Source: Candidatus Lindowbacteria bacterium RIFCSPLOWO2_12_FULL_62_27 (lineage in GTDB: Bacteria; Lindowbacteria; 2-12-FULL-62-27). Taken from it: a stretch of 64,000 nucleotides of DNA. A program made the translations under genes and the position numbers. The stretch covers positions 1 to 64,000 of the forward strand of contig MFPR01000044.1 in assembly GCA_001784175.1 (NCBI GenBank), in the 5' to 3' direction. A model generated the notes under the pieces. That model had not been told where the DNA came from and searched no databases. It worked only from the letters and a program-made list of their open reading frames with translations. Shown here one piece after another: positions 27,754-58,735 of this stretch (positions within the stretch are counted from its first letter, which is position 1; each line of letters starts with the position of its first letter).

Positions 27754-29751
27754 ATGGCTTTCAGGGAGGGGAACCCTCCGCGGGGGAGCTGCCGGCTCGT
27801 CCCGCGGGTGTTGGCGGCGGTATTGGGGATGGCCGTGTTCGCCGGGGGTGGCGCCTTGGGCGCGATCATCGACAGCATGGACGACGCGACGGTGTGGAGT
27901 CAGAAGTCCGTCGACGGCGCGGCGACGCTGACGGTCAGCACGGTCACCGGGCAATCCGGGAACGCGGTCGAGGGCGCGTATGACCTGAAGACCGGTTCGT
28001 ACGTCCAGTTCGGCCGCAAGCTCGAGACGGTAGACATCAGTTCCGGGGACGCGATTACCTTCCTCTACAAAGGTTCCGGAAGCAAGAACAGCATCGAGGT
28101 GAAACTCCAGGACAGCGGCGGCGACTGGTTCGCCAAGACCATCGCGAACGTGTCCGACACGGCGGAATGGACGCGCGCCGTTCTCAGATACTCGGGAACC
28201 AGTCCCGATTTCACTTTTGCCTTCATGGAGGGATCGAGCGGCGACTCGGCGCTCAACACTCGCGCGATCAAGAAAATATCGATCGGCGTGACCAAGAGCG
28301 CCGGAGGGTCCGGCACCCTGCTCTTGGACGAGCTCGGCGTGTATCAGGTGGCGGCCGACACGACCCAGATTGTCTTCGACAACTTCAATGACACCACCAA
28401 AACCACGAACAATCTGGGAGCCAACCAGCGGCTTGTTTATGACGACGCCAGCACGAGTTCGTTTTCGTTTTCCTACGATACCGCAGCCAAGCCGTCCGAC
28501 GGCGACACCGCTTCCTTCAAAATCATCTTCACGAAGGGCGGGACGACCAAGAACGCCGCCTGGCTGCCTGCGTTTGCGGTGGTCGACACAACGAGTTCCT
28601 GCACCGAACTCGTTTTCGACCTCAAAGGCGATACCGGCGCCACGCTGGGCATCGGGCTGAAGGGCACCGACGCGCAAAACACCACGCAGGAGGACCTGGT
28701 CTACTTGAACTCCTACCTATTGGGTGGAGTGACCGATGCATGGACAAGAGTCCGGATTCCGCTTACCGCCTTTCCCAACGTTTCCTTCCGAACTAATTTT
28801 CAGATCTGGTTCGCGACCGAACTCAAGGACGGCGTCACCATTTCACTGCCGACCGCTGCGACGACAAGCGTCTGGATAGACAACCTGAAGATATTTCGCG
28901 TCCCGGTGCCGAACGCCGTCCTCCAGACGCTCGACAGTTTCGACGCGCCGGTGTCCGCGTCGGGCTGGAGCAAGGCCACCGGCGACGATGCGTCGCTCAG
29001 CTTTGAGCGCGCGACCGGACAGGTCGGCAAGGCGTACGAGCTTGCGTACGCGTTCAACAGCGGCACCTACGCGATCATTGAGCGGAAAATATCGATCAAT
29101 GTCCAGGAGGGCTCCGCGTTTTCGTTCCTGCTGAAGGGAACCGGCGGCGCGAACAACGTGGAGTTCAAGGTCAAAGACGGCGACGGCACGACGTACTACA
29201 AAGTCCTCACCGGCGCCGCGAGCACATCCGGCGCTTGGGCGACCTACACGATCCCCTACACGCAACTCAGCTTTTTCTCCGCCGGGACCGACAACTCGCT
29301 CAATCTCGGGGAAATCGCGCAAATCGATTTTGCGATCACCAAATCTTCCGGTCAGTCGACCGGCGGAACTTTGGCGGTGGATCTCCTGTCCTACGGCGCC
29401 GCGCCTTCGATCAGCGCGAACGTGGCGGCGGGAGGCGTGGTCGAAAATCTGACCGTCAAGGGAAATCCTGTCAGCCCCAACGGCGATGGGATCGACGACG
29501 AGGTGACTTTTCAGTTTACGCTGAAAGAATCCTCTGTCGTCACCCTGAACGTCTACGACCTGCGAGGGACGCTCGTTCGGCAGATCCCAGGCGGCACGCA
29601 GGCGGCGGGCCCGCAGACGCTGAACTGGGACGTGCGCGACCGCGCCGGCCGCGTCTGCCCCAACGGGCTTTGCGTGTTCCAGTTCGAAGCGCGCAGCGCG
29701 ACGAGCGGCGGCCGGTCGGACATCCGGAACATCATCGCGGTCGTCCGATGA
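27754..29751 (+). CDS. Secreted protein with three CBM-like modules and a FlgD-Ig/gliding-type C-terminus
   Basis: 665 aa with an N-terminal signal (hydrophobic VLAAVLGMAVFAGGGALGA). Three beta-sandwich modules of about 160 aa follow (about 37-200, 208-385, 392-550). Two carry the motif GSGSKNSIEVKLQDSGGDW or TGGANNVEFKVKDGDGTTYY. The C-terminal domain (about 560-665) contains NPVSPNGDGIDDEVTFQFTL, LNVYDLRGTLVR and a WDVRDRAGR turn, the FlgD-like Ig fold used as a sorting or anchoring domain in many diderms. There is no catalytic domain. Its stop overlaps the start of a PorV-like gene (ATGA), the first of three cargo/PorV couples in the window. It probably binds polysaccharide at the cell surface. 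Confidence 0.72.
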   Translation: MAFREGNPPRGSCRLVPRVLAAVLGMAVFAGGGALGAIIDSMDDATVWSQKSVDGAATLTVSTVTGQSGNAVEGAYDLKTGSYVQFGRKLETVDISSGDAITFLYKGSGSKNSIEVKLQDSGGDWFAKTIANVSDTAEWTRAVLRYSGTSPDFTFAFMEGSSGDSALNTRAIKKISIGVTKSAGGSGTLLLDELGVYQVAADTTQIVFDNFNDTTKTTNNLGANQRLVYDDASTSSFSFSYDTAAKPSDGDTASFKIIFTKGGTTKNAAWLPAFAVVDTTSSCTELVFDLKGDTGATLGIGLKGTDAQNTTQEDLVYLNSYLLGGVTDAWTRVRIPLTAFPNVSFRTNFQIWFATELKDGVTISLPTAATTSVWIDNLKIFRVPVPNAVLQTLDSFDAPVSASGWSKATGDDASLSFERATGQVGKAYELAYAFNSGTYAIIERKISINVQEGSAFSFLLKGTGGANNVEFKVKDGDGTTYYKVLTGAASTSGAWATYTIPYTQLSFFSAGTDNSLNLGEIAQIDFAITKSSGQSTGGTLAVDLLSYGAAPSISANVAAGGVVENLTVKGNPVSPNGDGIDDEVTFQFTLKESSVVTLNVYDLRGTLVRQIPGGTQAAGPQTLNWDVRDRAGRVCPNGLCVFQFEARSATSGGRSDIRNIIAVVR

Positions 29752-30620
29752 AGAGACATTTGGGATTTTGGATTTTAATTCTGTGCGGCCTTCCGGGGGC
29801 AGCCTCGGCGGCGGCGTTTGAGGCCATGATGGTGGGGGCGCGGCCAGTCGGGATGGGCGGGGCGTTTGTGGCCGTGGCCGATGACGGGCTGGCGGCGCAC
29901 TACAATCCGGCCGGACTGGCCAACCTCAAGATGCGCCGGATCGACTCCGCCTACAGCGACCTCTACAATCTCGGGCTGTTGAAACGAAACTACATGTCCT
30001 ATGCGCATCCCAAACTTGGCCGGGCCGGCGCGGCCATCAGTTGGAATGGGCTCGCGACGTCGCAGAAGGTCACGTTCATCGATTATTCCGAGAACGCGTA
30101 TGGATTTTCCGTCGGATTCCCCGTGTACCGCGGGCTCGCCGTCGGATCGACGCTTAAATATTACTGGGTGAACTACGACAAAAAGGCCACCGGATACGGA
30201 TTCGACCTTGGCGTCATGCTCCGCTTCATGATGGACTACCGGTTCGGCGTGATGCTCCGAAACGCCAGCCATCCGAAAATCCGCTGGGCCACCGGCGCCA
30301 TCGATTACCTGCCGATCACGTGGGAAATGGGTCTCGCCGCCGACGTCGGCCGGCACACGCTGGTGTCCATCCAGTGGGACCGGCAGGCCGACAACAACGA
30401 CCGGTCGCTCTTCAGGGTCGGCGGGGAATACTGGCTCACCGAGCGGCGCGCCAGCACGCGACTGGGCGTCCGGGCGGGCGCCGTGAGGCACCCGATGAAC
30501 AAGTGGGCCTTCACCGGCGGGCTGAGCGCGGTCCTCAAGGGATTCGAAGCCGTCTATGGGCTGCAGTTCCACTACAACCTCGACGAAGAACACACGTTCT
30601 CGCTGAACTGGGCGTTCTGA
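29748..30620 (+). CDS. PorV/PorQ-family outer-membrane beta-barrel (copy 1)
   Basis: 290 aa. Signal peptide MKRHLGFWILILCGLPGAAS is partly encoded by a GGATTTT-type repeat. The mature N-terminus holds the family hallmark MMVGARPVGMGGAFVAVADD then HYNPAGLANL. Alternating strands follow and the protein ends in Phe (FSLNWAF), as barrel proteins do. PorV-like proteins help type IX systems deliver or process cargo with C-terminal sorting domains; other relatives resemble FadL/UPF0164 proteins. The start ATG overlaps the upstream TGA. It is more divergent from the other two copies than they are from each other. Confidence 0.8.
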   Translation: MKRHLGFWILILCGLPGAASAAAFEAMMVGARPVGMGGAFVAVADDGLAAHYNPAGLANLKMRRIDSAYSDLYNLGLLKRNYMSYAHPKLGRAGAAISWNGLATSQKVTFIDYSENAYGFSVGFPVYRGLAVGSTLKYYWVNYDKKATGYGFDLGVMLRFMMDYRFGVMLRNASHPKIRWATGAIDYLPITWEMGLAADVGRHTLVSIQWDRQADNNDRSLFRVGGEYWLTERRASTRLGVRAGAVRHPMNKWAFTGGLSAVLKGFEAVYGLQFHYNLDEEHTFSLNWAF

Positions 30621-30623
30621 AAA

Positions 30624-33600
30624 ATGGAGATTTTGGATTTTGGATTTTGGATTTTGGATTGGACACAGCGACGACTCCGAATCGGCTGTCTCGGATTTGC
30701 AGTCCTCATTGCGTGGGCCGCTCCAGTCGCCGGAGAATTTCTTCCGGTCGATGATTTCAATGACGCGAACGACCGGAACGACGCCGGCGGATATTCGTTT
30801 GTCCTGACCGACGGGCAGGCGGGGTCGGCGATAGCCATCGAATATGTTTCGGATCCCGCAGTCCGATACGGGCCGGCGGGATACAGCCTGAAGCTGACGT
30901 TTGAGATCAACACCTACAACGGATGGTGCGCGTGGGCCGCCGATCTGAACGGGCTGAACGCCGCGCCGTTTGACGCGCTCCGGTTTCGCCTGCACGGATC
31001 GCACAGCCGCGCGGAATCGTTCACGGTCCTTTTGCGGGATCGCAAAGGCAACCGGATATCAATCCGGACGTCCGACCATCTCTCGGCCGACGGCAATGGC
31101 TGGCGGGACCTGGATCTGCCGCTGGACAGGGGACAGGAATTTGACTGGAGCGACCTCGACACGCTGATGTTGATCCTTGATCGGGAGAATCTTTTTCCCG
31201 GCGTTCCGGGCGCGCTCCTGATCGATGACATCCGGTTTGAGAAGATTGCGCGTGAGGTGGCGCCGGCACGCGCGCCGGAACCATCGCCGCCGGCGCCCGC
31301 GCCGCCGCCGGCAGCCACACCGACGCCAAAACCTCCGGCGCCGATTCTTGCCGGGCCGGCGCCAAGCCTCAAGACGCCGGCGCAAACGACTCACCTCCTC
31401 TCCCCCCGCGAAGGGCGAGAGAGGACTGAGGTGAGGGGGGTAGACAGCGACACGCAAGGCTTGCCACCCTCACCCCAACCCTCTCCCGCCAGAGGCGGGA
31501 GAGGGGGGACGCCGCCGGTGGACACGAAGCCAGCTCCCATCCTGACGAAACCGAAGGCCGGCGGAGCGATTCCGCCGCTGATCGTGGCGCGGCCGGCGCC
31601 GCCGGAAACAAAACCGGCGCCGATCCTGACAAAACCAGCCGCACGCGGCGCCATCCCTCCATTGATTCTGACGAAACCTGCGCCGGTCTTGACCAAACAG
31701 CCCGCGCCCACACCTGCGGACAAGGGATACCTGACGTACGACGCCATGGAGAATCCCAAAGACTGGGCGACCGAATCCGATCAGGGCGCGAGCCTCCAGC
31801 TCAAACCGGTGCCCGGCGTCAAAGGCCAAGCGCTCTCTCTGACCTACTCCTTCGGCAAGGGCGGCTGGGTGCAGATGTCCAAACCGTCAAAGGCGGACCT
31901 GAGCCGCATGGAAGCCTTGAGGCTCCGGGTCAGAGTCGTCAAAGGAACCGTCAACTTGGAGATCAAGCTGACGGACGAAGACTTCTCGAACTTCGGGAAA
32001 AAATACGAGGCCCTCAAGCCCGAAAACGAGTGGGCCACGATTGACATCCCCATCGAGCAGTTCACATACTGGTGGGGTGGAGACAGCAAGCTTGACATGA
32101 AAACCATCCGGGGCGTTTACATCGCCGTCAGTAAAGTGTCCGGCAACGCCGGCGAGATTCTCGTTGATGACATCGAGTATAAATCGCGCGCGCCGACGGC
32201 CGCCGAAGTTCCCGGCGGGCTCGTCCTCATCGACAGTTTCGAACGCAGCGTTCCCGAAAACGCCTACTCAGTCCTGCGCGGCGACAACTCGGTCCTGAAC
32301 CTCGAGTCGGTCCGCGACGCACACGATGGCAACTATTCGATGCGTTTCGATTACACGCTCGAAACCACGCGGAGCATTCCGACCCACGTCGGCGCGTCCA
32401 GCGCATTCGCGACGACGCTGGACTGGCGCGGCGTGGACCGGTTCAACCTCTGGGTCCGGGGTGACGGCTCGTCCAACCACCTGCGGATCAACCTCGTCGA
32501 CCGCGACGAGGAAGTGTGGAGCGCCGTCCACCGGCACGTTTTGAAATCAAGCCAGTGGCAGCTCGTGTCGATCCCGATTGCCGACTTCAATATCCCGGGT
32601 GACGCGCCGGCGCGAAACAAGAGATTCGACGTCGACGAGATCAACAAGATCGAGATCCAGATCGTGGGCGACCGGACCGACAAGACGACCGGCACGGTGT
32701 GGGTCGACGAGATGTACGTAACCGGCAAAAACCTCGATCCCAACAAGGTCGGCCCGGCGGAGCTCCGCAAGGGCCTGGTGGTTCCCCTGCCGGCCCTGGC
32801 CGCCGCCTTCAACTTCGGGATCGTCAACTTCGCGGAATTCTCCGACGTTCCGGAAGAGGGCCAGAAGGTGAACCACTATGGGAAAATCCTGATGGACGCG
32901 CAGTTCTCGAAGTTCTCGACCCGTCTCGAAATCGCCTCCGATTTCCAGGACTACGGCGCGTCGGCCTATTTCGACACCAAGGGCACCCTGAGCCTCGAAA
33001 ACCCGAGGACCGTTCTCGTCAACAGCCAGATCAACGTCAGCCAGATCCACCCGAACCTGCGCCTCCTGACGCTCGGATACCTCTGGATCGATTTCGGACG
33101 CTGGACCTTCACGCCGCAGTTCGGAAGCAAGGGCCTCAAGGCGGAAGGATCGATCGGAGACGCGGGATACGAAGCGTTTGTGATCAAGAAACGCTACGAG
33201 TCCTACGCGGCCGGGTCGCGCGTGACCCTGACGCTCGGGCCGTGGCTCCTGCAGTCCATCTTCGTTTACGACAACGACGTCGCCCAGCAGACCGGCGCCA
33301 CGCTCGTCGGCGGGCAACTCGTGAGTTCCAGCTCCAAACTGGTGACGCGTCCGATTTCGAAGGATTTCGTCGGAACCCTCGAAGTCACGCGGAAGCTGAG
33401 CAAGGACCGGATCACGCTCTCGGCGCTCCTCGGACGCAATCTCAACACGCAGTTCGGGACCAAGACCGGCACCTTCAGCCCGACCGTCGTCTCGCTCTAC
33501 GACAGCCCGCGGAACAAATCGGGAAACCTCGGAATATTCGAGGCGCGGTTGAACGATTACCCGTGGAAAAAACTCTCGTCGCAGGTCCAGTACCGCTGGA

Positions 33601-34172
33601 TCGGGACGCACTTCAAGCCCAATTTCCGGGAAGCCGGCCTGTCGTTTGACGACGCGTGGGCGGACCAGCAAGGCTACAACCTGCGGTTTCTCCAATCGAT
33701 CTGGAAGATGAATTTCGCCGGAGAATACGACCGGATCGACCGTCTATCGGCCACGCACTACAACCGGCGCCGGTCGAGGCTGACGTGCGGCTACTATGGA
33801 ATCCGCAACGTGGATATCGCCGTTTCGGGCGAGCAGTTCGCGGAGGTCTACAAATTTTCGAGCGACCGAACGGCCTTTTCAACAGACAAGAACGAGAAGA
33901 AATTCAGCGCCGAAGCCTATGTGGGCCTGCGGGTGTCGGACAAACTCAGGACCTGGGCCAAGGCGATCGAGGAACGAATCACGCATCCCGGAAACAACAA
34001 CGCCAAATACAAGACTGACATCTTCCAGACCCGCTTCGAATACTTCGTCTCCAACAACTCGCGCATCTTCGCCGAATACAAATTCACCCAGTTCGGCAAC
34101 CCCGCCTGGGAGCCGATCGGCTCGCCCTTCGACGACAATTTCACCAAACTAAGCGTGGAGCTGAATTTCTAG
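30624..34172 (+). CDS. Outer-membrane beta-barrel protein with N-terminal CBM modules
   Basis: 1182 aa. Signal peptide (about 1-38), first ligand-binding-type module (about 40-212), a Pro/Lys-rich linker (about 213-365), a CBM11-like module (about 368-525, with VNLEIKLTDEDFSNFG and FTYWWGGDSKLD) and a third module (about 534-705). Residues about 710-1182 are alternating amphipathic strands with frequent Tyr/Phe/Trp, ending LSVELNF with a terminal Phe, as expected of an outer-membrane barrel. The modules would lie on one face of the membrane, tethered by the linker. The first codons are encoded by a heptamer repeat, and REP-like palindromes (31390-31506) encode part of the linker. A role in capturing glycan at a pore is plausible but not shown. 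Confidence 0.7.
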   Translation: MEILDFGFWILDWTQRRLRIGCLGFAVLIAWAAPVAGEFLPVDDFNDANDRNDAGGYSFVLTDGQAGSAIAIEYVSDPAVRYGPAGYSLKLTFEINTYNGWCAWAADLNGLNAAPFDALRFRLHGSHSRAESFTVLLRDRKGNRISIRTSDHLSADGNGWRDLDLPLDRGQEFDWSDLDTLMLILDRENLFPGVPGALLIDDIRFEKIAREVAPARAPEPSPPAPAPPPAATPTPKPPAPILAGPAPSLKTPAQTTHLLSPREGRERTEVRGVDSDTQGLPPSPQPSPARGGRGGTPPVDTKPAPILTKPKAGGAIPPLIVARPAPPETKPAPILTKPAARGAIPPLILTKPAPVLTKQPAPTPADKGYLTYDAMENPKDWATESDQGASLQLKPVPGVKGQALSLTYSFGKGGWVQMSKPSKADLSRMEALRLRVRVVKGTVNLEIKLTDEDFSNFGKKYEALKPENEWATIDIPIEQFTYWWGGDSKLDMKTIRGVYIAVSKVSGNAGEILVDDIEYKSRAPTAAEVPGGLVLIDSFERSVPENAYSVLRGDNSVLNLESVRDAHDGNYSMRFDYTLETTRSIPTHVGASSAFATTLDWRGVDRFNLWVRGDGSSNHLRINLVDRDEEVWSAVHRHVLKSSQWQLVSIPIADFNIPGDAPARNKRFDVDEINKIEIQIVGDRTDKTTGTVWVDEMYVTGKNLDPNKVGPAELRKGLVVPLPALAAAFNFGIVNFAEFSDVPEEGQKVNHYGKILMDAQFSKFSTRLEIASDFQDYGASAYFDTKGTLSLENPRTVLVNSQINVSQIHPNLRLLTLGYLWIDFGRWTFTPQFGSKGLKAEGSIGDAGYEAFVIKKRYESYAAGSRVTLTLGPWLLQSIFVYDNDVAQQTGATLVGGQLVSSSSKLVTRPISKDFVGTLEVTRKLSKDRITLSALLGRNLNTQFGTKTGTFSPTVVSLYDSPRNKSGNLGIFEARLNDYPWKKLSSQVQYRWIGTHFKPNFREAGLSFDDAWADQQGYNLRFLQSIWKMNFAGEYDRIDRLSATHYNRRRSRLTCGYYGIRNVDIAVSGEQFAEVYKFSSDRTAFSTDKNEKKFSAEAYVGLRVSDKLRTWAKAIEERITHPGNNNAKYKTDIFQTRFEYFVSNNSRIFAEYKFTQFGNPAWEPIGSPFDDNFTKLSVELNF
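30631..30660. repeat. GGATTTT heptanucleotide tandem repeat at a gene start
   Basis: Four tandem copies of a 7-bp TTTTGGA unit begin 7 bp after the ATG at 30624 and encode ILDFGFWILDW at the protein N-terminus. A shorter related run (TTTGGGATTTTGGATTTT, about 29760-29777) lies at the same place in the preceding PorV-like gene. Confidence 0.8.
31390..31506. repeat. Pair of REP-like palindromes inside a coding sequence
   Basis: Two CTCTCCC...GGGAGAG hairpins with CTCACC/GGTGAG arms lie within the open frame of the CBM/barrel gene. They encode LLSPREGRERTEVRG and later PPSPQPSPARGGRGG in the proline-rich linker (residues about 256-294). They belong to the same family as the repeats at 24796, 43823 and 50638. 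Confidence 0.8.
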
Positions 34173-34173
34173 C

Positions 34174-37100
34174 ATGGGCGGCAGGCCGGCTCTATATAAT
34201 ATTTGTATATATATAATAGTGATTTCGGTTCTGAGCCCGGGCGTGTCCCGTGCAGACATTGTACATGACGATTTTAACGACAGTTCCACCAGCAACGACT
34301 GGGGCGGCAGCACCGGGACTTTTACGGGCAGCGGCGGGACCATCAGCATCAATCGAATCTCGTCCGATGCGTCCGAAGGCGCGCGGTCGCTGGAGATGCA
34401 ATTCGATGTGACGGCATCCTCCGCCTACAGCGGCTACTACAGCCGCCTGAACGACACCAACCTGTTCACCGACACGGCCAACAACCGGGCGGTGTCGTTT
34501 TTCGTCAAGGGGCTGGCCGGCCACGAGGTGTTCAAGATAGAGGTCGGCGAGTCCGATGCACTGTCCCAGAAAACCCTGGTCCGGGATTTTATCAACGGCG
34601 GCGTCACCACCGCCTGGCGGCAGGTCTACATCCCGATGATGGCGTACGACCAGTTGAATTTCAACGATTCCCGCTGGACCGGCAACCTGGCGTTCGTGTT
34701 TGAGGATGGGCTTGGATCGCCGAAATCGGGAACGATCCGGATCGACAGCATCCAGATCGTCAAGACACCCGATACATACCTCGTCGATACCTACGACGAC
34801 GGCGATACGCAGAAAAGTTCGTTCGGCGGGACCAACACGTTTTATGAAAATCAGACGGAAATGAACGCCCAGCGCGATACGTCGACGTTCGTCGGCGACA
34901 CGGGCGCCTCCTTGCGCATCGCCTACACCTGCACGGGCACGTCGTCCGGAAATTACACGGTGTACGAGCAGACCGTCAACAACGGGCTCGGCAAGGGCCA
35001 GGACGTGCGGTTCGCGACTTCGCTGCACTTCTGGATCCGCGCCGACACCGGCCTGCGCGGTCCCCTGGCCAACGTGTGGCTCATCGACATGGGCAACGGA
35101 TCCAACCAGAAGGACATCGAGTCGTTCGTTCCCGCCATCCCGATCGACACGTGGGTTCCAGTCAACATTCCGATCCGCGTATTTTCCGGGGTCGACACGC
35201 CGTCGCTCAAAATGATCAAGTGGGCGTGGGAATACGAGGACAAGAGCGGGACCATGTGGCTGGACGCCGTGGAATTTTCGAAGGGGTATGACCTTTCCGT
35301 GCCGGCGGCCCCGGCGCTGTCGAAGCCGGCGGCCGACACAGTCATGCAGGAAACCACACCGGCGTTCTCATGGAACAGCGTGTCGGACGGGCAGGGGGTG
35401 TCGTATTTCATTCAGGTAACGGCATACGAGGACACCGATTTTTCCGACCCGATTCTTCGTGAGGTCACCAGCGCGACGAGCCTGACGTTCGCGCAGGCGC
35501 TGGCGAATGGCGGCCGGTATCGGTGGCGGGTCGCGGCCTTTGACGGGCACGGAAACTGGAGCATCTTCAGCGACAGCCGCGCGTTCAAAATCCAGTCGGC
35601 CACGCATGACGATTTCAACGACAGCGCCACTACCAACAAATGGGGAGGCGCCGCCGGCATTTTTACCGGAGGCGCCGGGGCGATCACCATCAACCGCACG
35701 TCGGCCGACGCGGCCGAGGGCGCACGGTCGCTTGAAATCGCGTACACCGCCACCGGCGCGAGCGGAGATTATTCGGGCTATTACAGCGAGCTGAACAACA
35801 TGAACGTGACCGACACGCCGAGAAACAGGGCGCTGTCGTTCACGATCAAGGGACTGGCGGGCAACGAAGTGTTCAAGGTCGAGCTGGGTGAGTCGACGGT
35901 GAAGACCCAGCAGGTGGCCGTCCGCGATTTTCTGAACGGAGGCGTGTCGACCGCCTGGAGGGACATCCACATTCCTCTTTCGGCGTTCGACCAGTTGAAT
36001 TTCACCAACCCGTGGTGGAACCGCAACCTCGCGTTTGTGTTTGAATACGACTTGGGAACGCCGAGGTCCGGAACCGTACGGATCGACAACATCCGGCTGA
36101 CCTCCGAGCCGGAGACGTACCTCGTGGACTCCTATGACGACGCCGACACGTCCAAATCGTCCTTCGGCGGGACCATGGTCTACTATGAGAACAATGCCGA
36201 CCTGAATGCCCAGCGCGACACGAGCACCTACGTCGGAGACACGGGCGCATCCCTGCGCATCTTCTACAACGTGACAGGCGCGGGATCGGGCAACTACGTC
36301 GTCATCGAGCAAACCGTCAACAACGGCGTCAACAAGGGCCAGGACATCCGGCACATGTCGTCGCTCCATTTCTGGGTCAAGGCCGATTCCGGCACGCGCG
36401 GGCCGCCCGCCAACGTCTGGATGCACGACATGGGCAACGCGTCCAGCCAGAAGGATCTCGAGGCGTATATCCCGGCCCTTCCAACCGACACGTGGGTTCC
36501 GGTCAACATTCCGCTGCGTGCGTTTTCCGGCGTCGATAGCGCGTCGCTGAAGATGATCAAATGGGCGTGGGAGTACGAAGACAAGAGCGGCACGATGTGG
36601 ATCGACGCGGTCGAATTTTCCAAAGGATACGATGTCACGGCGCCCAACACTCCTGTTTTGTCCGGAGTGTATCCCGACTCGACACCGACCTTTTCGTGGA
36701 CGGGAGGGAATGACGCGCAGGGAGAGAGTTATTACATCCAAGTCGCCGCTTTCTCCGATACAAAATTTGAGAACGTCATCCTGAGTTCAGTGACCGGCGC
36801 CGCCAGCATCACGTTCACGCAAACGCTGTCCGCCGGGAGCCGCTATCACTGGCGGGTTGCGGCCTTTGACCGGCACGGCAACTGGACCGGATTCAGCGAC
36901 ACGAAAAGTTTCGTGGTGTTTGAGGACACCGGCCGAAGCACGGTGTTCGTGTCCGATCGCGGGGACAGCTCGAACGTCGGATCGGCGGACACGAGGGGGG
37001 CGTTCGGCGGGATATTTGAGGCGATCTCATATCTGGATCCCGCGAACGGCGCGGACACGGTCGTGATCTTCAACCGGATCGGATCGGACTCGTACCGGCT

Positions 37101-40100
37101 GACGGCCGCGGTCGTGCCGGACAGCGGAATGACGATGTTGAGCTTCCGAGAATGGAACCGCCGCGTCAACGGCCAGAATACCGACACCGGCGGCGGCACC
37201 GACACTTACGCAAGGCTGGCCTCCAGCGCCGATACCGCACTCCTGTTCATTCCCAACATCGACAACGTCACCATCGCTGGGCTCATCCTTGACGGCGAAA
37301 GCACGGCCGGTTCCTCCAAGGCCGGCGTCCTCCTCTCCAACTCCCGCTCGGACTCCATCAGCCTCGTCCACATCTACCGCGCCAACACCGGTATCCGCCT
37401 CGCCGCGTCCCTGAACAACGCCATCGCCGCCTGCATCCTCACAGGCAACGACAGCGCCTCCGTCTCCCTCCAAACAGGGGCGAGCAACAACACCGTCGGC
37501 GGCAACTCGGTCCGGGGCGGGGGATTTGGGATACACGTCAGCGGGGATCAAAACGTCATCGTGGACAACACGGTCTACGGGGCTGCGCGGGCCGGCCTGT
37601 ACCTCGACAGCGGGACGGCGAACCGTGTGCAGGGCAACCGCATCCAAAACGGCGGATCGTACGGCGTGATGCTCTCGAACTCGGCGCAGGGCAATTACGC
37701 CGCGCTGAACGAGATCGACTCAACGGCGGGCGCGGCGATCTACATCGGATCGAGCGGGACGAACCACACGGACACGTTCGAGGCGAACAACATCACGAAC
37801 TGCACGACGGCGGTGATCAACGAGGAGGCCGCGACGTTTGACCTGCGATACAACTGGTGGGGGAGCCGGGACGAAGACGCGGTGACGGACAGCGCGATGA
37901 ACACGGGCGGCGGGGGGCTGTTGGTTGTGCCGCTGTCGCTGCACGTGATCGACACGTCGGCGGGCGCGGACACGCTGTCGCCGGATTCGACGAAGATCAG
38001 CGCCGACTCGACGGTGACGACGTCAAGCGTGACGATCACGTGGGACACGGTGTCGGTCGACCGGGACTCGACGGCGCTCGGGGGTCTGGCGGGATATCAT
38101 GTGTACCGCCGCACTTCGGCCGGGACGAACTGGTTCGAGAGCCTCATCGACACCGTACTCGCCGGCGGCGGAACCGACACGCGGTACACGGACTCCTCTG
38201 CGAGCGTCAACAACACGTACTATTACCGGGTGACGGCATTTGACTCGCACTACACAGGCGGCCGGCTCTTCCTCAATGAAAGCTGGTTCTCCGACACGCG
38301 GATCATCAGCACACCGGAGACCACGGTGTCGCTTGCGATTGTGATCACCTCCCCGGCGCCGGGCGATACGGTCGGCCTGACGAAAGGCATCACCTACTAC
38401 CTGCCCAAGAATCCTTCGAATTACGACACGGTCGTCCTCGCGCAGTTTTCGCCGGACAGCGGCGCCAACTGGTACACCATTCTGAAACGGAGTGGAGACA
38501 CCCAGAACCTTCTGGCGGACGCGGACGGCGAAACCTATACGCTCACTTGGAACGTCTACTCGAGCCTCTTCGACACTTCCATCGCCGGCCGGGTTCAAAT
38601 CCGGATGGCGGCGACCAGCGGGTCGGACACCGTATGGGACACAGTCACGGATTTCAACGTCAACACCGTGATCGACAGCGGCGGTATGACCGTATTTGTG
38701 TCCAACGGCGGTGATTCGTCCTATCCTTACGCCGCCGACACGGACGGAGGATTGCCCGACATCGGTGTCGCGTTTGGGCTTTTGACTCCAGCAAATGGCG
38801 CCGACACGGTGGTGATCTTCAACCGGATCGGATCGGACTCCTACCGGCTGACGGCCGCGGTCGTGCCGGACAGCGGAATGACGATTCTCGGATTTCGCGA
38901 ATGGAACCGCCGCGTCAACGGCCAGAACACCGACACCGGCGGCGGAATCGACACCTACGCTACGCTCGCCTCAAGCGCCGATACCGCGATCGTGTTCATC
39001 CCCAACATCGACAACGTCACGATCGCAGGACTCATCCTCGACGGCGAAAGCGCCGCCGGTTCCGCCAGGGCCGGTATCCTCCTCTCCAACTCCCGCTCGG
39101 ACTCCATCAGCCTCGTCCACATCTACCGCGCCAACACCGGTATCCGCCTCGCCGCGTCCCTGAACAACGCCATCGCCGCCAACATCCTCGCCGGCAACGA
39201 CAGCGCCGGCGCCTCCATCCAGGCCGGGTCGAGCAACAACACCGTCCGCGGCAACTCGGTCTGGAGCGGAGGACTCGGCATCCACGTCGGAGGAGATCAA
39301 AACATCATCGTGGACAACACGGTCTACGGGACCGCCCGGGCCGGCCTGTACCTCGACAGCGGGGCGGCGAACCGCGTGCAGGGCAACCGCGTCCAGAACG
39401 GCGGGTCGTACGGGATGATGCTGTCGAACTCGGCGCAGGGCAATTACGCCGCGCTGAACGAGATCGACTCGACGGCGGGCGCGGCGATCTACATCGGATC
39501 GAGCGGGACGAACCACACGGACACGTTCGAGGCGAACAACATCACGAACTGCACGACGGCGGTGATCAACGAGGAGGCCGCGACGTTCGACCTGCGATAC
39601 AACTGGTGGGGGAGCCGGGACGAAGACGCGGTGACGGACAGCGCGGTGAACACGGGCGGCGGCGGCCTCTTGGTCCTGCCGCTGTCGCTGTGGGTGATTG
39701 ACACGTCGGCGGGCGCGGACACGGTGTCGCCGGATTCGACGAAGATCAGCGTGGACTCGACGGTGACGACGACCGGCATAACGATCACGTGGGACACGGT
39801 GTCGGTCGACCGGGACTCGACGGCGCTCGGGGGTCTGACGGGATATCATGTGTACCGCCGGACGGGCGCGGGGACGAACTGGTACGAGAGCCTCATCGAC
39901 ACCGTACTCGCCGGCGGCGGAACTGACACAAAATATGCGGACACGGGCTTGAATCCGAGCGCCACTTACTATTATCGCGTGACGGCATTCGACTCGCACT
40001 ACACGGGCGGGCGGCTCTTCCTCAACGAAAGCTGGTTCTCCGACACCCGCGCCGTCACAACGTCAACACCGTCGACATCCGATACGAATGTCCACGACCA

Positions 40101-42864
40101 TTACAACGACAGCGTCACGACCAACAATTTCGGCGGCACCGTTGGGTCGTTTACGGGCGGATCGGGAGTGTCCCGCATCAACCGTATCACGACCGACGCC
40201 CTCGAGGGCGCCCGGTCGATGCAAATCGATTACACCGTCGCCTCGTCAGGAGATTTCGCGGGGTTGTACAGCGAGCTGAACAACTGGAATCCCGCAGACA
40301 CTGGATTCGGCCGGTTCTGGAGCTTCTGGGTCAAGGGCCTGGCCGGCCAGGAAATATTTTACCTGGAGTTCGGCGAGTCCACAGCGAAAACACAGCAGCT
40401 CACGGTCGCCGACTTCGTCAACGGCGGGATCGACACCGTCTGGCAGGAAGTCAACATCCCGCTCATGGCGCTCGACGATCTGAATATCACCAATCCGAAA
40501 TGGAACCGCAATTTCGCCCTTGTGTTCAGCAACGCCCTCGGACCGCCCACCAACGGATCGGTCCGGGTCGACAGCGTTTCGGTGAAAAAATACATCGATA
40601 CTTTTTTCATCGACACATTCGACGACCCCGACACGTTCGAAAACAGTTGGGGCGGAACCAACACGTTCTACGCGAACGGCGGCGGCGCTCTGAAAGCGAA
40701 GCGGGACACGGGAACGTTCGTCGGCGATACCGGCGCGTCGCTGGTTCTGCCGTACGGCGTGCCGAATCCCTCCGGCGGCGACTATGCCGTCGCCGAGTTC
40801 AACATCCAGAACGGCGCGGGCTGGTGGGCGGACCTGAGCCAGATGACGTCGCTGCGATTTCATATCAAAGGCGATTCGGCCTCGACCGACAAGCAACTCA
40901 ACATCTGGCTCATTGACAATTCCAGCGCGGACGCGATTGTGGATCTTGAAAAGTTCATCCCGGACCTCCCGACGACCTCGTGGGTTCCCGTCAATATTCC
41001 GCTCTCTCAGTTCTACGACGGAGCGCCGCCCGACACGAAATACACCAAACTCATCAAATTCGCGTGGGAATCCGACGCCATGAGCGGCACGACATGGATC
41101 GACGCGATCGAGGTTTCACGCGGGTACAATCTCTCGCCGCCGGACACGCCGGCCAATCAACAACCGGCGGCCGCGGCCGACACCGGCACCGAAACGCCGG
41201 TGTTCCGGTGGTCGGCGTCGACCGACGCGCAGGGCGTCTCGTATTTCGTGCAGGTCGCGTCGATTTTTGACACGGACTTCACCGATCCGATCCTGAGCGG
41301 CGTGATGGCCGGAAACGAAACGACCTTTTCGAAGGGCCTCAAATCCTCGAACACCTACCAGTGGCGGGTCGCGGCCTTTGACGGACACGGCAACTGGACC
41401 GGGTTCAGCGATTCGACGCGGTTCCGTGTGGTCTCGGGAAATTTCCCGGTGATCAAACTCACGCACCCTGATTCCAACGCCGTTCAGGGCACCGCCACTC
41501 TCTTTGTGGGCGGCGTGCTGTCGGACACGGAAGACACGCCGACCCGCGTCGATTTTCTCGTCAACGGCGCGTATGTGTCGGACACGGCGGCGGTGGATTC
41601 AAGCGGCGCGTTCGGCGACACGCTGACTTTTGCGGCGGCGGGAACGTACACCGTAACCGCCATCTGCACGGACCAGGCCGGCAATACGGCCTCCGCCACC
41701 CTCACGCTGACGATCGACCTCGGTGCGCCCAAAGTCGAATTCACGGCGCGCGCCGCCGGCGAGACCCAGACGACCGTCACGATCACCGGCACGGTCAGCG
41801 ACTCCAAACAGGTCACGGAACTGCGCGTCACGCACAACTCCGACACCGTCACGCTCGTCAGCCTGTCGGCGGACAGCAAGGCCTTTTCGTTCAGCGTGTC
41901 GGTCACGCTGGTCAGCGGCAAGAACCAGTTTGTTGCCAAGGCGACCGATACGGCCGGCCTGGTCGGATACGATACGCTCAATATCCTGCGGACCACCGCG
42001 TTCAAAACCGCCGCCGGCGGGACCACGGTGGCGCTGCCCGAAGGCAGCCAGTACGACACGTGGGTCGGGGTGATCGCGTTCTCCGACACGGCGTCCACGC
42101 CGGTCGAAATTCCGATGTATGACCCGAACAAGGGATCCTACGCGGACAAACTGTCCATGACGATCAAGCCCGCCGACAGCGGAGTCATTCTGATGGTGCG
42201 TCGGCCGCCCGACACGATGGACCTCAAGCTCGGAACGGTCGATCTCAAGCGATCCGACTTCAAGCACACGATTTTCGAATTCAACCTCTTCGATTCGGCC
42301 GGCGAGAACAACATCGGGGGAAGTTCCGGCAAGTTCTCGACGTTGAGCCTTTCGCTCAAGCCTGCCGCAACCACGATCGCCGGCGTCGCGGTGACCGATC
42401 TGAAACTCTATACGCTGAACGAGCAGGCCGGCCGCTGGGAGGAAATTTCCGGCAGCGGATACGACGCGTCGACCGGCGAAATCAAAGGCACGCTGTCCCA
42501 CCTCTCGTTCTACGCGTTCTTTCCGGACACCACCAAACTCGTCGCGGCGGAACTGTCCGGCGTCATGATCTTCCCCAATCCCTTCGTGCCGAACGACGGC
42601 GTCGACGAAAACGGCCGCTGGGCGGTCGCGGGCGATTTCACCACGGGCATCGTCATCGACAACCTCACGGACGACGTCCTCATCCGCATTTTCACGATCA
42701 CCGGCAAAATCGTCCTCGAACAGCGCGTCCAGAACGCCGGCCGGACCCAGTGGAACGTCACCAACAAGGTGGGCGACAAACTCGCGAGCGGCATCTACCT
42801 CATCCACGTCAAGGACATGAAAGGCCGGGGCGAAGCGGTCCGGAAGGTGGCGGTAGTCAAATGA
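34174..42864 (+). CDS. Giant multidomain surface protein (2896 aa) with type-IX-like C-terminal domain
   Basis: Signal peptide (IYIIVISVLSPGVSRAD) encoded by an unusually AT-rich stretch. A tri-domain unit of two CBM-like sandwiches plus one Fn3-like domain occurs three times (about residues 26-470, 476-915, 1969-2420); hallmark strings are HDDFNDS, WEYEDKSGTMW and YRWRVAAFDGHGNW. Between copies 2 and 3 lie two right-handed beta-helix regions (about 920-1300 and 1505-1885), each followed by an Fn3-like domain; these come from a 1.26-kb duplication. Then come Ig-like domains (2425-2610) and a C-terminal module (2610-2896) ending in a sorting-type domain (FPNPFVPNDG ... WNVTNKVGDKLASGIYLIHV). 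No catalytic motif was seen. It probably binds polysaccharide or mediates adhesion at the cell surface. It is ATGA-coupled to a PorV-like gene. Confidence 0.8.
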   Translation: MGGRPALYNICIYIIVISVLSPGVSRADIVHDDFNDSSTSNDWGGSTGTFTGSGGTISINRISSDASEGARSLEMQFDVTASSAYSGYYSRLNDTNLFTDTANNRAVSFFVKGLAGHEVFKIEVGESDALSQKTLVRDFINGGVTTAWRQVYIPMMAYDQLNFNDSRWTGNLAFVFEDGLGSPKSGTIRIDSIQIVKTPDTYLVDTYDDGDTQKSSFGGTNTFYENQTEMNAQRDTSTFVGDTGASLRIAYTCTGTSSGNYTVYEQTVNNGLGKGQDVRFATSLHFWIRADTGLRGPLANVWLIDMGNGSNQKDIESFVPAIPIDTWVPVNIPIRVFSGVDTPSLKMIKWAWEYEDKSGTMWLDAVEFSKGYDLSVPAAPALSKPAADTVMQETTPAFSWNSVSDGQGVSYFIQVTAYEDTDFSDPILREVTSATSLTFAQALANGGRYRWRVAAFDGHGNWSIFSDSRAFKIQSATHDDFNDSATTNKWGGAAGIFTGGAGAITINRTSADAAEGARSLEIAYTATGASGDYSGYYSELNNMNVTDTPRNRALSFTIKGLAGNEVFKVELGESTVKTQQVAVRDFLNGGVSTAWRDIHIPLSAFDQLNFTNPWWNRNLAFVFEYDLGTPRSGTVRIDNIRLTSEPETYLVDSYDDADTSKSSFGGTMVYYENNADLNAQRDTSTYVGDTGASLRIFYNVTGAGSGNYVVIEQTVNNGVNKGQDIRHMSSLHFWVKADSGTRGPPANVWMHDMGNASSQKDLEAYIPALPTDTWVPVNIPLRAFSGVDSASLKMIKWAWEYEDKSGTMWIDAVEFSKGYDVTAPNTPVLSGVYPDSTPTFSWTGGNDAQGESYYIQVAAFSDTKFENVILSSVTGAASITFTQTLSAGSRYHWRVAAFDRHGNWTGFSDTKSFVVFEDTGRSTVFVSDRGDSSNVGSADTRGAFGGIFEAISYLDPANGADTVVIFNRIGSDSYRLTAAVVPDSGMTMLSFREWNRRVNGQNTDTGGGTDTYARLASSADTALLFIPNIDNVTIAGLILDGESTAGSSKAGVLLSNSRSDSISLVHIYRANTGIRLAASLNNAIAACILTGNDSASVSLQTGASNNTVGGNSVRGGGFGIHVSGDQNVIVDNTVYGAARAGLYLDSGTANRVQGNRIQNGGSYGVMLSNSAQGNYAALNEIDSTAGAAIYIGSSGTNHTDTFEANNITNCTTAVINEEAATFDLRYNWWGSRDEDAVTDSAMNTGGGGLLVVPLSLHVIDTSAGADTLSPDSTKISADSTVTTSSVTITWDTVSVDRDSTALGGLAGYHVYRRTSAGTNWFESLIDTVLAGGGTDTRYTDSSASVNNTYYYRVTAFDSHYTGGRLFLNESWFSDTRIISTPETTVSLAIVITSPAPGDTVGLTKGITYYLPKNPSNYDTVVLAQFSPDSGANWYTILKRSGDTQNLLADADGETYTLTWNVYSSLFDTSIAGRVQIRMAATSGSDTVWDTVTDFNVNTVIDSGGMTVFVSNGGDSSYPYAADTDGGLPDIGVAFGLLTPANGADTVVIFNRIGSDSYRLTAAVVPDSGMTILGFREWNRRVNGQNTDTGGGIDTYATLASSADTAIVFIPNIDNVTIAGLILDGESAAGSARAGILLSNSRSDSISLVHIYRANTGIRLAASLNNAIAANILAGNDSAGASIQAGSSNNTVRGNSVWSGGLGIHVGGDQNIIVDNTVYGTARAGLYLDSGAANRVQGNRVQNGGSYGMMLSNSAQGNYAALNEIDSTAGAAIYIGSSGTNHTDTFEANNITNCTTAVINEEAATFDLRYNWWGSRDEDAVTDSAVNTGGGGLLVLPLSLWVIDTSAGADTVSPDSTKISVDSTVTTTGITITWDTVSVDRDSTALGGLTGYHVYRRTGAGTNWYESLIDTVLAGGGTDTKYADTGLNPSATYYYRVTAFDSHYTGGRLFLNESWFSDTRAVTTSTPSTSDTNVHDHYNDSVTTNNFGGTVGSFTGGSGVSRINRITTDALEGARSMQIDYTVASSGDFAGLYSELNNWNPADTGFGRFWSFWVKGLAGQEIFYLEFGESTAKTQQLTVADFVNGGIDTVWQEVNIPLMALDDLNITNPKWNRNFALVFSNALGPPTNGSVRVDSVSVKKYIDTFFIDTFDDPDTFENSWGGTNTFYANGGGALKAKRDTGTFVGDTGASLVLPYGVPNPSGGDYAVAEFNIQNGAGWWADLSQMTSLRFHIKGDSASTDKQLNIWLIDNSSADAIVDLEKFIPDLPTTSWVPVNIPLSQFYDGAPPDTKYTKLIKFAWESDAMSGTTWIDAIEVSRGYNLSPPDTPANQQPAAAADTGTETPVFRWSASTDAQGVSYFVQVASIFDTDFTDPILSGVMAGNETTFSKGLKSSNTYQWRVAAFDGHGNWTGFSDSTRFRVVSGNFPVIKLTHPDSNAVQGTATLFVGGVLSDTEDTPTRVDFLVNGAYVSDTAAVDSSGAFGDTLTFAAAGTYTVTAICTDQAGNTASATLTLTIDLGAPKVEFTARAAGETQTTVTITGTVSDSKQVTELRVTHNSDTVTLVSLSADSKAFSFSVSVTLVSGKNQFVAKATDTAGLVGYDTLNILRTTAFKTAAGGTTVALPEGSQYDTWVGVIAFSDTASTPVEIPMYDPNKGSYADKLSMTIKPADSGVILMVRRPPDTMDLKLGTVDLKRSDFKHTIFEFNLFDSAGENNIGGSSGKFSTLSLSLKPAATTIAGVAVTDLKLYTLNEQAGRWEEISGSGYDASTGEIKGTLSHLSFYAFFPDTTKLVAAELSGVMIFPNPFVPNDGVDENGRWAVAGDFTTGIVIDNLTDDVLIRIFTITGKIVLEQRVQNAGRTQWNVTNKVGDKLASGIYLIHVKDMKGRGEAVRKVAVVK
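37042..38297 (+). repeat. Intragenic duplication, copy A
   Basis: This 1256-bp segment matches 38791-40046 at a constant offset of 1749 bp with no net indel. It codes for a beta-helix domain and an Fn3-like domain. Long stretches are identical at DNA level, so the duplication is recent or homogenised. Confidence 0.9.
38791..40046 (+). repeat. Intragenic duplication, copy B
   Basis: Second copy of the beta-helix/Fn3 segment. The 493 bp between the copies (38298-38790) encode a different domain, with ITSPAPGDTVGLTKGITYYL at its start. Confidence 0.9.
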
Positions 42865-43775: not shown

Positions 43776-43822
43776 CGCCCATGTTTTCAATGTTAGCTCT
43801 TTGTAACTGTTCCCCATGTGTC

Positions 43823-43868: not shown

Positions 43869-43892
43869 AATCGCCGTCCGACATCCCGCGCA

Positions 43893-43928
43893 AGTTGACA
43901 ATTATTGTATTTCTATAGTTGACAATTA
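43893..43928 (+). promoter_or_regulatory. Duplicated AGTTGACAATTA box upstream of regulator
   Basis: AGTTGACAATTA occurs at 43893-43904 and 43917-43928, the second ending 7 bp before the ATG. TTGACAATT recurs at 45005-45013, right after the regulator stop and before the sugar-transport operon. Each contains a consensus -35 hexamer (TTGACA), and ACAATTATTGT at the first box is a perfect palindrome around one base. This could be an operator for the adjacent winged-helix protein, covering both its own gene and the ABC operon. No convincing -10 at 17 bp was found. Confidence 0.4.
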
Positions 43929-43935
43929 GTTTACA

Positions 43936-45003: not shown

Positions 45004-45174
45004 ATTGACAATTCTGACCGGAGGACTGGCATTTTCCGGTTCGGCCATGTATGCTGTAAGCGTTTTCAGCAGGCGTTGGTAAAATTAGGTTTGACGCGCG
45101 ACCGGCGCAGAGTCACAATCGGGCCCGGATCTGACGGACGGATGGTTCTCATCTCTCTTGTCGAGGGGTTGATT

Positions 45175-47409: not shown

Positions 47410-47413
47410 GATC

Positions 47414-50673: not shown

Positions 50674-50680
50674 GGGGGAG
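50638..50680. repeat. REP-like palindrome overlapping a gene end and the next start
   Basis: CCCTCTCCCCCGGAGGGGGA and GAGGGTCGGGGTGAGGG, same family as 24796 and 43823. It provides the stop codon (50671-50673) of the glycosidase gene and the purine-rich sequence directly before the ATG at 50681. Confidence 0.8.
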
Positions 50681-52732: not shown

Positions 52733-52762
52733 AGGAATCACATTCTTGAACGGGGGTGCGGC

Positions 52763-53872: not shown

Positions 53873-53890
53873 GTTTGACCGGGTAACCGG

Positions 53891-56531: not shown

Positions 56532-56537
56532 AACCGC

Positions 56538-57821
56538 TCACCGCGCCGCGGCGGTCTGGGCGCGGATCTTGACGGCCTGCTCCATGTAGACTTCAGCCTC
56601 GATCAGACGGTTCATTTTGACGTACAGGTTCGAAACGGTTTCCATCAGGCTCGCCACGGCGGGATGATCGGGGCCGAGCACCCTCTGCTTGATGTCCAGG
56701 GCGAGGAGAAATGTGTGCTCTGATTCGGTGTATCGCCTCTGCGCAAGCAACCGCAGGGCCTCGCTTTCATAGAACTCCGCATACATTAAAGGGGTGGAGT
56801 CTGGATGGGACGAAGGTGGTTGGTCGAGGTTTATCCGCCACAGCTTCAACGTGCGACGCTCCAGAAGATCAATCGCCGCAAGGTGGCGGCCGTCCGGCGA
56901 AAATTCAACCCAGTCCACTGGGCCCGCGCACGGAATCGTCTGCAACAGAATTCCACGGCGCGCATCCCACATCTCGATCCATCCCCGGCTTACCGTCGGC
57001 CGGCTTAGCGCGGTCCCGCCGATGCCCGACGCCAGCCGGACGCCGGTCGCATCAAAGGCCAGCGATCGCACGTTCAACCGGTCGTTCTCCCTCTTTCCCA
57101 GCGTCCGCGCAGGAGCGCTCGTGTCCGGATCGATCAGGCGGATCGACAGGCCGCTGCCGGCCGCAAGTTTGCGGCCCGTGGGGAAAAACGCGAGGTCCCG
57201 GACCCATCCCCGGTGATGGACCGTTCGGAGACGCGCTCCCGTTACCGCATCCCATATCGTGACGGACCCCGTGACGATGCCGGCGGCGAGGCGCGCGCCG
57301 TCCGCAGAGAATTCCATTGCGGTGATCACGCCCTTTCGGTCGGCCTGAAACGTGCGGATCGTTTCACCCGTGGCGGCGCCCATCAGAAGCACCCGGTCGC
57401 CGCCGGACGGCGCGGCCAGAAATCGGCCGTCCGGCGAAAAAACCACCGGCGCATCCGGATCGGCGCGGTCCAGCGTCCCGAGCAGTTTTCCTCGCGACCA
57501 TGTCCGCAGTTTCGTTTCCTGCCCCGACCGCGTCACCACCTGCCGCCCGTCGGGGGAAACCGCGATCACCCGCTCCTCCGCGCCGAGCGGCCGGCCCTCG
57601 TCGGTGATCGTCCAGCGGCTCAGGACCTGCCCGCTTTCGGGGTCCATGATGTCGAACGTCGCGGGCGCGGTGGAGACAAGGAGATGGCCGGAGGGGAGAA
57701 ATTTCGCCCACTCGGCGGGCGGGGGTTCTTTGAACTCAACAGGCTCGTACGATTCCGCGACGACGGCAGGACTCCAGATGAGAATCATCAACGCGAACGC
57801 CGCGCAGAAACGTCCCGTCAC
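56538..57821 (-). CDS. Secreted WD40-type beta-propeller protein with C-terminal TPRs
   Basis: 427 aa with signal peptide (MTGRFCAAFALMILIWSPAV, cleavage near VAES). Residues about 40-340 hold seven or so repeats of the WD40/PQQ type, such as VVFSPDGRFLAAPSGGDRVL, AMEFSADGARLAAG and VEFSPDGRHLAA. A TPR pair follows (about 345-415, with AEFYESEALRLLAQRRYTES, LALDIKQRVLGPDHPAVASL). Such proteins serve as interaction platforms. Its ATG overlaps the stop of the third PorV-like gene, so it is probably a periplasmic accessory of that secretion couple. No enzymatic motif was seen. Confidence 0.8.
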   Translation of the reverse strand: MTGRFCAAFALMILIWSPAVVAESYEPVEFKEPPPAEWAKFLPSGHLLVSTAPATFDIMDPESGQVLSRWTITDEGRPLGAEERVIAVSPDGRQVVTRSGQETKLRTWSRGKLLGTLDRADPDAPVVFSPDGRFLAAPSGGDRVLLMGAATGETIRTFQADRKGVITAMEFSADGARLAAGIVTGSVTIWDAVTGARLRTVHHRGWVRDLAFFPTGRKLAAGSGLSIRLIDPDTSAPARTLGKRENDRLNVRSLAFDATGVRLASGIGGTALSRPTVSRGWIEMWDARRGILLQTIPCAGPVDWVEFSPDGRHLAAIDLLERRTLKLWRINLDQPPSSHPDSTPLMYAEFYESEALRLLAQRRYTESEHTFLLALDIKQRVLGPDHPAVASLMETVSNLYVKMNRLIEAEVYMEQAVKIRAQTAAAR

Positions 57822-58735
57822 GGGATGTCCCCGAAACGGATCGTCAGGCTGAACCGGTGCGTGTCGCCGAAAACGCCCAGCGGCACAAAGGCGTAGTCGA
57901 CGTCCACCATCTTGAATCGAACGCCGACACCGGCCGTCAGCCCGTCGTCCGCGTCCTTGTTTTCCAGCGTGTAGCCCAGCCGGAGGGAAAAATGCCGCAG
58001 CAGCGTGTACTCGGCGCCGAAATTGATGAAGAGATCGTCATAGCGAACCTTGTTCAGATCCAGGCTCAGAACCACGTTGCGCTCCGGCAGAAACTTCAGG
58101 GCGGTCCCGACCCGGAAGGACCTCGGCAGGGGTTCTTCGACCGTCAGGTATTTGATGCCGGACCCATAGTTCTTGACGGAGGCGCCGATCGTCCAGAAGT
58201 CCATCGGCCGGACCTGGATTCCGAAATCGCCCGTGACCGCTGTGCCGCCGTGCTCGTAAATCCGGCTTGAAATGAACCGGCCCAGGGCGCCGACCGACAC
58301 GCCATTCGTGATTTCCCGGCCATAACCGATGTCGAACGCCATGTCCCGCGCGCCGAAAAATCCCAGCACCTGACCCGCCTGCCCGGACGTCAGAGTCGTC
58401 CGCTCAATGTCCTCGATCGTCATGACGTTCGCGCTGATCCCCCAGTTGCCATAGGGCGTCGGAAAGGCCAACGCCAGGTAATTCTGGTCGATGTCGGCGA
58501 TGTACTGGTTGTTCTGGAACGTCACTTGGGCCGTCCGAACCCTTCCGAGTCCCGCCGGGTTCCAGTACATGCTCGTGGCATCGTCCACAACCGCAGTGTA
58601 GGCGCCGCCCATCGCAACCGCTCGCGCGCCCTGCCCAATGCGCAGAAATTCCAGCGAAGTGGATCCCGGTTCCGCCCATGCGGGGAGCGCCGGCAAGAAC
58701 AACAGGAAAGACAGGATGAACTTTGCAGGCCTCAT
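57818..58735 (-). CDS. PorV/PorQ-family outer-membrane beta-barrel (copy 3)
   Basis: 305 aa. Signal peptide ends near PAWAEP; then GSTSLEFLRIGQGARAVAMG and TSMYWNPAGLG give the family signature. Barrel strands continue to the C-terminus, with LRLGYTLENKDADDGLTAGV and MVDVDYAFVPLGVFGDTHRF closely matching copy 2. Unlike the other copies the last residues (FGDIP) extend past the aromatic. It sits between the giant repeat protein and the WD40 gene with ATGA overlaps on both sides. Confidence 0.85.
   Translation of the reverse strand: MRPAKFILSFLLFLPALPAWAEPGSTSLEFLRIGQGARAVAMGGAYTAVVDDATSMYWNPAGLGRVRTAQVTFQNNQYIADIDQNYLALAFPTPYGNWGISANVMTIEDIERTTLTSGQAGQVLGFFGARDMAFDIGYGREITNGVSVGALGRFISSRIYEHGGTAVTGDFGIQVRPMDFWTIGASVKNYGSGIKYLTVEEPLPRSFRVGTALKFLPERNVVLSLDLNKVRYDDLFINFGAEYTLLRHFSLRLGYTLENKDADDGLTAGVGVRFKMVDVDYAFVPLGVFGDTHRFSLTIRFGDIP

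Follow-up and report, generated by a model that had tools for sequence, protein, structure and literature searches.

Structures from Flavobacterium johnsoniae place the outer-membrane barrel PorV at the lateral gate of the SprA translocon, where it binds the carboxy-terminal domain (CTD) of the cargo and is contacted by a near-terminal lysine of that domain (PMC10994853). In Porphyromonas gingivalis, PorV delivers type A cargo to PorU for removal of the CTD. PorU–PorV and PorZ–PorQ are CTD/barrel subcomplexes of about 1:1 (PMC5562754), and type B cargos have a cognate SprF/PorP barrel, encoded directly downstream, that extracts and anchors them, with some orphan cargos sharing a shuttle (PMC12618676, PMC9143113). 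Reviews confine type IX secretion to the Bacteroidota or the Fibrobacteres–Chlorobi–Bacteroidetes (FCB) group and assign one PorV to all type A cargos (PMC10202324, PMC12618676, PMC11205867). Here we describe three gene couples, each pairing a large protein that ends in a type IX-like CTD with a PorV-like barrel, in a 64,000-nucleotide stretch of DNA (hereafter the window; bases 1-64,000 of the 64,490 of contig C44) from Candidatus Lindowbacteria bacterium RIFCSPLOWO2_12_FULL_62_27 (genome G000; 4.39 Mb, 94% complete), and we follow such couples through this genome, through two relatives from two other genera of the same family (G001 and G002; completeness 81% and 88%) and beyond. C numbers denote G000 contigs and L numbers extracted loci.

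On balance, we think it likely that these couples are cognate pairs of a type A-like CTD and its PorV, analogous to type B CTD/SprF pairs, within a sortase-less system resembling the type IX secretion system (T9SS) outside the Bacteroidota. A preliminary description of this DNA had reported that each barrel gene begins inside the ATGA stop of a gene for a large secreted protein, and all three overlaps were confirmed (29748-29751 and 42861-42864 on the forward strand, 58732-58735 on the reverse strand). The C-terminal domains of the cargos were also as described; the third cargo is incomplete, its 5′ end lying beyond both the window and the contig end, and it falls outside the interval that had been described. 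The features are as follows.

27754..29751, forward strand: cargo 1, a secreted protein whose domains are of CBM11/CBM30 type and whose C-terminal domain is FlgD-Ig-like (Pfam CBM_11, CBM30, FlgD_ig and a weak CHU_C)
29461..29748, forward strand: CTD of cargo 1, divergent and without the conserved near-terminal lysine (CTD profile, E = 1.3e-19)
29748..29751, forward strand: ATGA start/stop overlap of couple 1, read from the sequence
29748..30620, forward strand: PorV-like barrel 1, a divergent member of 290 aa (NF033709, 52 bits, under the cut-off of 90)
34174..42864, forward strand: cargo 2, 2896 aa, secreted, with CBM30-type, Ig/Fn3 and beta-helix domains and a type A-like CTD (domain scans)
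42571..42861, forward strand: CTD of cargo 2 (CTD profile, E = 2.3e-29; its model resembles PorZ, PorU and CTDs bound in the translocon)
42861..42864, forward strand: ATGA start/stop overlap of couple 2, read from the sequence
42861..43775, forward strand: PorV-family barrel 2, 304 aa (NF033709, 185.5 bits against a cut-off of 90)
57818..58735, reverse strand: PorV-family barrel 3, 305 aa (NF033709, 196.4 bits against a cut-off of 90)
58732..58735, reverse strand: ATGA start/stop overlap of couple 3, read from the sequence
58732..64000, reverse strand: cargo 3, an Ig-repeat protein with 13 Big_13 domains and a type A-like CTD (frame still open where the contig stops, at 64,490)
58735..59034, reverse strand: CTD of cargo 3 (CTD profile, E = 5.2e-26)
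30624..34172, forward strand: CBM11/CIA30 protein, its C-terminal half outer-membrane-barrel-like (barrel nature judged by eye)

By profile comparison, the window barrels are assigned to the PorV/PorQ family and not to PorV orthologues: barrels 2 and 3 scored 75.9 and 81.5 bits with the PorV equivalog NF033710 (cut-off 250), and the PorQ equivalog cut-off was also missed. Against the PDB, a profile of 50 PorVs matched F. johnsoniae PorV at E = 4e-35 and TodX at 1e-6; an AlphaFold2 model of barrel 2 (pLDDT 92.7) ranked the PorV chains 8gl6_F and 6h3i_F above TodX and FadL, and Toluene_X stayed below its cut-off on the window barrels in a Pfam scan. The CTD model best matched PorZ (5m11) and PorU (6za2), followed by CTDs trapped in the translocon (8glk, 8gl8 and 8gl6), and the CTD profile found the same three groups in the PDB (additional WD-40 and WRAP rows being short repeat matches). 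TIGR04183 scored the window CTDs slightly under its cut-off of 23 (21.8 and 22.2), and PorP/SprF and type B CTD models had no match in an NCBIfam scan. The C-terminus of cargo 1 is FlgD_ig/CHU_C-like and those of cargos 2 and 3 are Por_Secre_tail/PorZ-like. Most CTDs have the near-terminal lysine, replaced by arginine in the TPR-fused couples, with cargo 1 having neither. The N-termini of cargos 1 and 2 resemble signal peptides.

A PorV-family search of G000 recovered 17 intact genes and one fragment, 12 of the genes exceeding the NF033709 cut-off (PF13568, which is the wrong family, gave no PorV match in the genome). Genes in the DNA around each were predicted by a simple caller based on codon usage. 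A CTD gene lies directly 5′ of PorV in 15 of the 17 cases, and in one PorV is directly 5′ of the CTD gene, which links 16 of the 17 to CTD proteins; the PorV genes are thus not mostly unlinked, the outcome that the preliminary description had set against its reading, and its observation holds genome-wide, more broadly than was stated. Among the 15 PorV genes that follow a CTD gene, 10 show the exact ATGA and in three more the ATG is no further than one base from the stop; an ATG at −4 or −1 was found for 14/17 PorV genes compared with 23/109 other co-directional neighbours (Fisher p = 1.6e-6). Translational coupling had been called directly seen: it is the overlap that is seen, and enriched, and coupling is what it suggests. 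In the pair with reverse order, on C26, the PorV gene immediately precedes a giant gene ending in a CTD at C26:14583, and the PorV orthologue in both relatives also has a large gene on its 3′ side. The PorV gene with no CTD neighbour (C21a) is preceded by a gene for a CBM48 protein with an outer-membrane-barrel-like end, and a similar gene precedes its orthologue in G002.

PorV fusions were observed at five loci (L032:9848-13324, L033:7343-11056, L036:7265-11110, L037:8966-10411 and L038:8272-9828), three with long C-terminal TPR arrays, one with a CBM30-type insert within the barrel and one with a large C-terminal domain. Two fragments close to the C30 barrel in sequence (G000:C30:10418-10756 and G000:C43:49738-49887; 88% and 60% identity) are apparently decayed copies.

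Divergence of the two partners was compared across 15 couples, where PorV distance and CTD distance were correlated (Mantel r = 0.80, p < 5e-5); the correlation was 0.69 when one of the three TPR-fused couples was kept, and 0.47 (p = 0.012) minus the TPR-fused couples and two odd couples. Seven couples are retained in the two other genera, where the best match of every CTD and of every PorV is its own counterpart (CTDs 57-86% identical by blastp over the last 95-108 residues; PorVs 56-76%). The barrel 1 orthologue sits in the same couple in G002 (58% identity), and couples 1 and 2 share one contig there too, in reversed order. Together, these results show that couples have been inherited and duplicated as units, which does not in itself prove specific binding.

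The pairing is common across phyla and not peculiar to G000. A first set comprised 80 PorV loci selected for their similarity to the query, from named genomes of the Elusimicrobia, Aerophobetes, Calditrichaeota, Neomarinimicrobiota, KSB1, Rhodothermales, Latescibacterota and other groups; a CTD was found in 66/79 open reading frames (ORFs) ending beside the PorV start, compared with 19/526 other ORFs. In a second set of 40 PorV genes from five further genomes, picked by best family scores and not by neighbourhood, a CTD gene precedes PorV in 33, and in a complete Rhodothermales chromosome 10 of 11 PorV genes follow a CTD gene, one of these couples being PorU–PorV (L260). Up to 47 PorV-family matches occur per genome, a count in which a few genes are perhaps split into two matches. 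In the Rhodothermales, Calditrichaeota and Neomarinimicrobiota, the CTD partner is often about 1150-1190 aa (L109, L114, L118, L128, L163 and similar loci); the one partner scanned, that of L109, received no convincing NCBIfam name. Beyond the family of the host, the nearest comparison genomes rank only as 'same domain', and an rpoB tree puts G000 and G002 together on a deep branch of their own, separate from the FCB and Elusimicrobia branches, any closer kinship being weakly supported. The preliminary description had presented dedicated PorV partners as a variant of described systems; many PorVs in place of one bears this out, but the contrast was drawn too sharply, given how common the pairing is across phyla and that type B/SprF cognate pairs are described (PMC12618676).

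The search for other type IX components, which the preliminary description had proposed, was positive for the translocon and negative for the sortase. G000 encodes a distant SprA/Sov homologue of 1800 aa on C20 (L039:6305-11707, reverse strand), which aligned with FCB SprA in hhalign over 1146 columns (99.9% probability, E = 3e-36); phmmer gave it no match in the PDB, a match requiring profile comparison. Similarly remote SprA homologues were found in nearly all Elusimicrobia and other lineages tested. The C25 sortase of PorU (PF01364) was found neither in G000, at 94% completeness, nor in G001, and gave one weak partial match in G002; it was likewise not found in any Elusimicrobia tested and was strong in FCB genomes. 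Loss of PorU as a driver of PorV expansion was considered and rejected, PorV counts being equally high in PorU-bearing genomes.

In the mechanism that we propose, each couple would supply, from the same message and at a fixed ratio, a large surface protein, exported by Sec and ending in a type A-like CTD, together with its cognate PorV. The signal peptide would bring the cargo into the periplasm, where the CTD would fold and enter the SprA/Sov-type translocon; by analogy with the F. johnsoniae structures, the cargo's own PorV would then dock at the lateral gate, bind the CTD and pull the cargo out. No PorU-type sortase having been found, the simplest fate for the cargo is lasting non-covalent anchoring: it probably remains on the surface, held by its PorV through the uncleaved CTD, much as PorV holds PorU, PorQ holds PorZ and SprF/PorP hold type B cargos. 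For the window couples, polymer capture or adhesion is the likely task, since glycan-binding modules are present on the displayed proteins and the surrounding region is one of polysaccharide degradation (18107-56531, with a GH9 with CBM11, GH116, GH35/42, an F5/8-type C protein, a sugar ABC transporter and GGDEF-like proteins).

Several observations weigh against specific pairing in a T9SS-like system, and some of them favour a reading in which the barrels are interchangeable shuttles of such a system, any PorV serving any CTD, with the genes placed beside large cargos so that supply scales with cargo expression and the couples spread by block duplication. A profile built from 14 partner CTDs found 35 strong CTDs in G000 (E = 1.3e-12 or better) and weaker ones, many of which are repeats inside two giant frames (C2 and C40); 15 of the 35 sit in couples (the partner CTD of C2 itself is weaker, at 2e-8). 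About 20 strong CTD proteins have no adjoining PorV, and a dedicated PorV per cargo, as first proposed, is therefore not universal and holds from the PorV side only. The 18 of them that form one class must borrow a shuttle; the PorV site in F. johnsoniae is plastic and accepts many type A CTDs, whose contact face is poorly conserved (PMC10994853); and block duplication alone, with no binding specificity, would also yield both the distance correlation and the retained pairing. Couple 1 is divergent in its CTD and in its PorV, the SprA candidate (69.9 bits) is far under the TIGR04189 cut-off of 200, and sortase absence offers no explanation for PorV families that are equally large where PorU is present. 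The components identified include no energising motor (PorL/M) or ring (PorK/N); for the motor, the GldM model TIGR03517 was silent in every genome, Bacteroidota included, so that its silence is uninformative. What tells against free interchange is that the 18 PorV-less CTDs are uniform (65% mean identity at their C-termini), as expected if one shuttle serves them, whereas paired CTDs are diverse (31%), as if sharing required one CTD type, and that pairs are retained across genera with no re-pairing seen. We regard full interchangeability as unlikely, though a serious competitor.

The uniform-CTD cargos without an adjoining PorV probably share one or a few shuttles. The C30 cargo is the only paired cargo within their class, and at 6/18 of the uniform-class loci, as at C30, the cargo is followed by a cassette of an Alginate_exp-type barrel, usually a 160-aa protein, and a FecR-like protein (L078, L079, L080, L083, L085, L086 and L034, of which only L034, the C30 locus, also has a PorV). 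The C30 barrel may therefore be the natural candidate for a general shuttle of these 18 CTDs, an assignment that fits within G000 because only the C30 cargo shares the uniform CTD and the cassette; its orthologue was not found in the two relatives, at their 81% and 88% completeness, which have CTDs apparently of the uniform class. A further alternative, that the barrels are FadL-like nutrient porins forming SusCD-style uptake pairs with glycan-binding surface proteins whose Ig-like C-termini are merely structural, would suit the GH116, GH9, GH35/42 and sugar ABC transporter genes of the window, the CBM30-type insert in one PorV and the common fold superfamily of PorV and FadL. We consider it highly improbable: the CTDs specifically match T9SS CTDs by sequence and fold, Ig-repeat and beta-helix cargos and unrelated phyla show the same pairing, and a SprA homologue is present. 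The combination that the preliminary description had held to count against its own reading, a lack of type IX core genes together with clustering of the barrels with FadL, did not occur, SprA being represented and the barrels being closer to PorV than to TodX/FadL in sequence and fold.

Proton-driven ExbBD motors are related in kind to GldLM. On C18, genes for ExbB, ExbD, TonB and a TPR protein come after a PorV gene, and all but the TPR gene recur in G001 (L026:4519-10598, L238:2936-5906); this operon is a possible lead for the motor of the system, not evidence for one. If cognate pairing is extended in this direction, sortase-less type IX systems outside the Bacteroidota would be self-contained display modules, powered by ExbB–ExbD–TonB and not by GldLM, in which an uncleaved CTD fastens every cargo to a PorV of its own, and the one-shuttle layout of P. 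gingivalis would be derived and reduced, porU–porV being a surviving couple; we offer this as a speculative and rather doubtful generalization.

Among other observations, the giant open frames on G000:C2 (~22,286 codons) and G000:C40 (~10,454 codons) contain many CTD-like internal repeats. The gene at 30624-34172 separates couple 1 from couple 2 and shares their operon-like run; a near-identical 'ILDFxFWILD' peptide opens both this gene and unrelated ones (L034:7530-9044; L037:10429 and 15450), which suggests either that a repeat is dispersed among gene starts or that the starts are mis-called.

Cognate CTD/shuttle pairs for type B, and the PorV family itself, are already known. In the open-access literature, most subscription papers lying outside it, we found no description of PorV-family couples as a rule, nor of type IX parts in such a lineage. 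What we describe lies outside the Bacteroidota and the FCB group: a SprA homologue, 17 PorV-family genes and no fewer than 35 CTD proteins, of which many belong to matched couples. If pairing is specific, these couples would provide natural cognate and non-cognate sets for finding the determinants of CTD recognition, which is hard with single-PorV models, and gene order lets cargos be located beside barrels in uncultured genomes.

Compared with the PorV/type A systems of F. johnsoniae and P. gingivalis, the G000 system is alike in its PorV-family barrels, its type A-like CTDs, the near-terminal lysine in most of them and its SprA-type homologue, and unlike in that one PorV serves all type A cargos there whereas nearly all of the 17 PorV-family genes here each adjoin one CTD protein, mostly with start/stop overlap, no PorU sortase was found and the host is not in the Bacteroidota. 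PorU–PorV and PorZ–PorQ likewise set a CTD protein on a PorV-family barrel, PorZ and PorU offer the closest solved CTDs, and the porU–porV gene order is itself a CTD/PorV couple (L260); the cargos here are adhesin/CBM-like, unlike the sortase and A-LPS delivery proteins of those pairs. The type B/SprF systems (SprB–SprF, Fjoh_3952–Fjoh_3951) differ from the couples described here, which have type A-like CTDs and PorV/PorQ-family barrels, but share with them a gene order in which the barrel that shuttles or anchors a cargo comes directly after its gene and, as is probable here too, the use of one shuttle in common by some orphan cargos.

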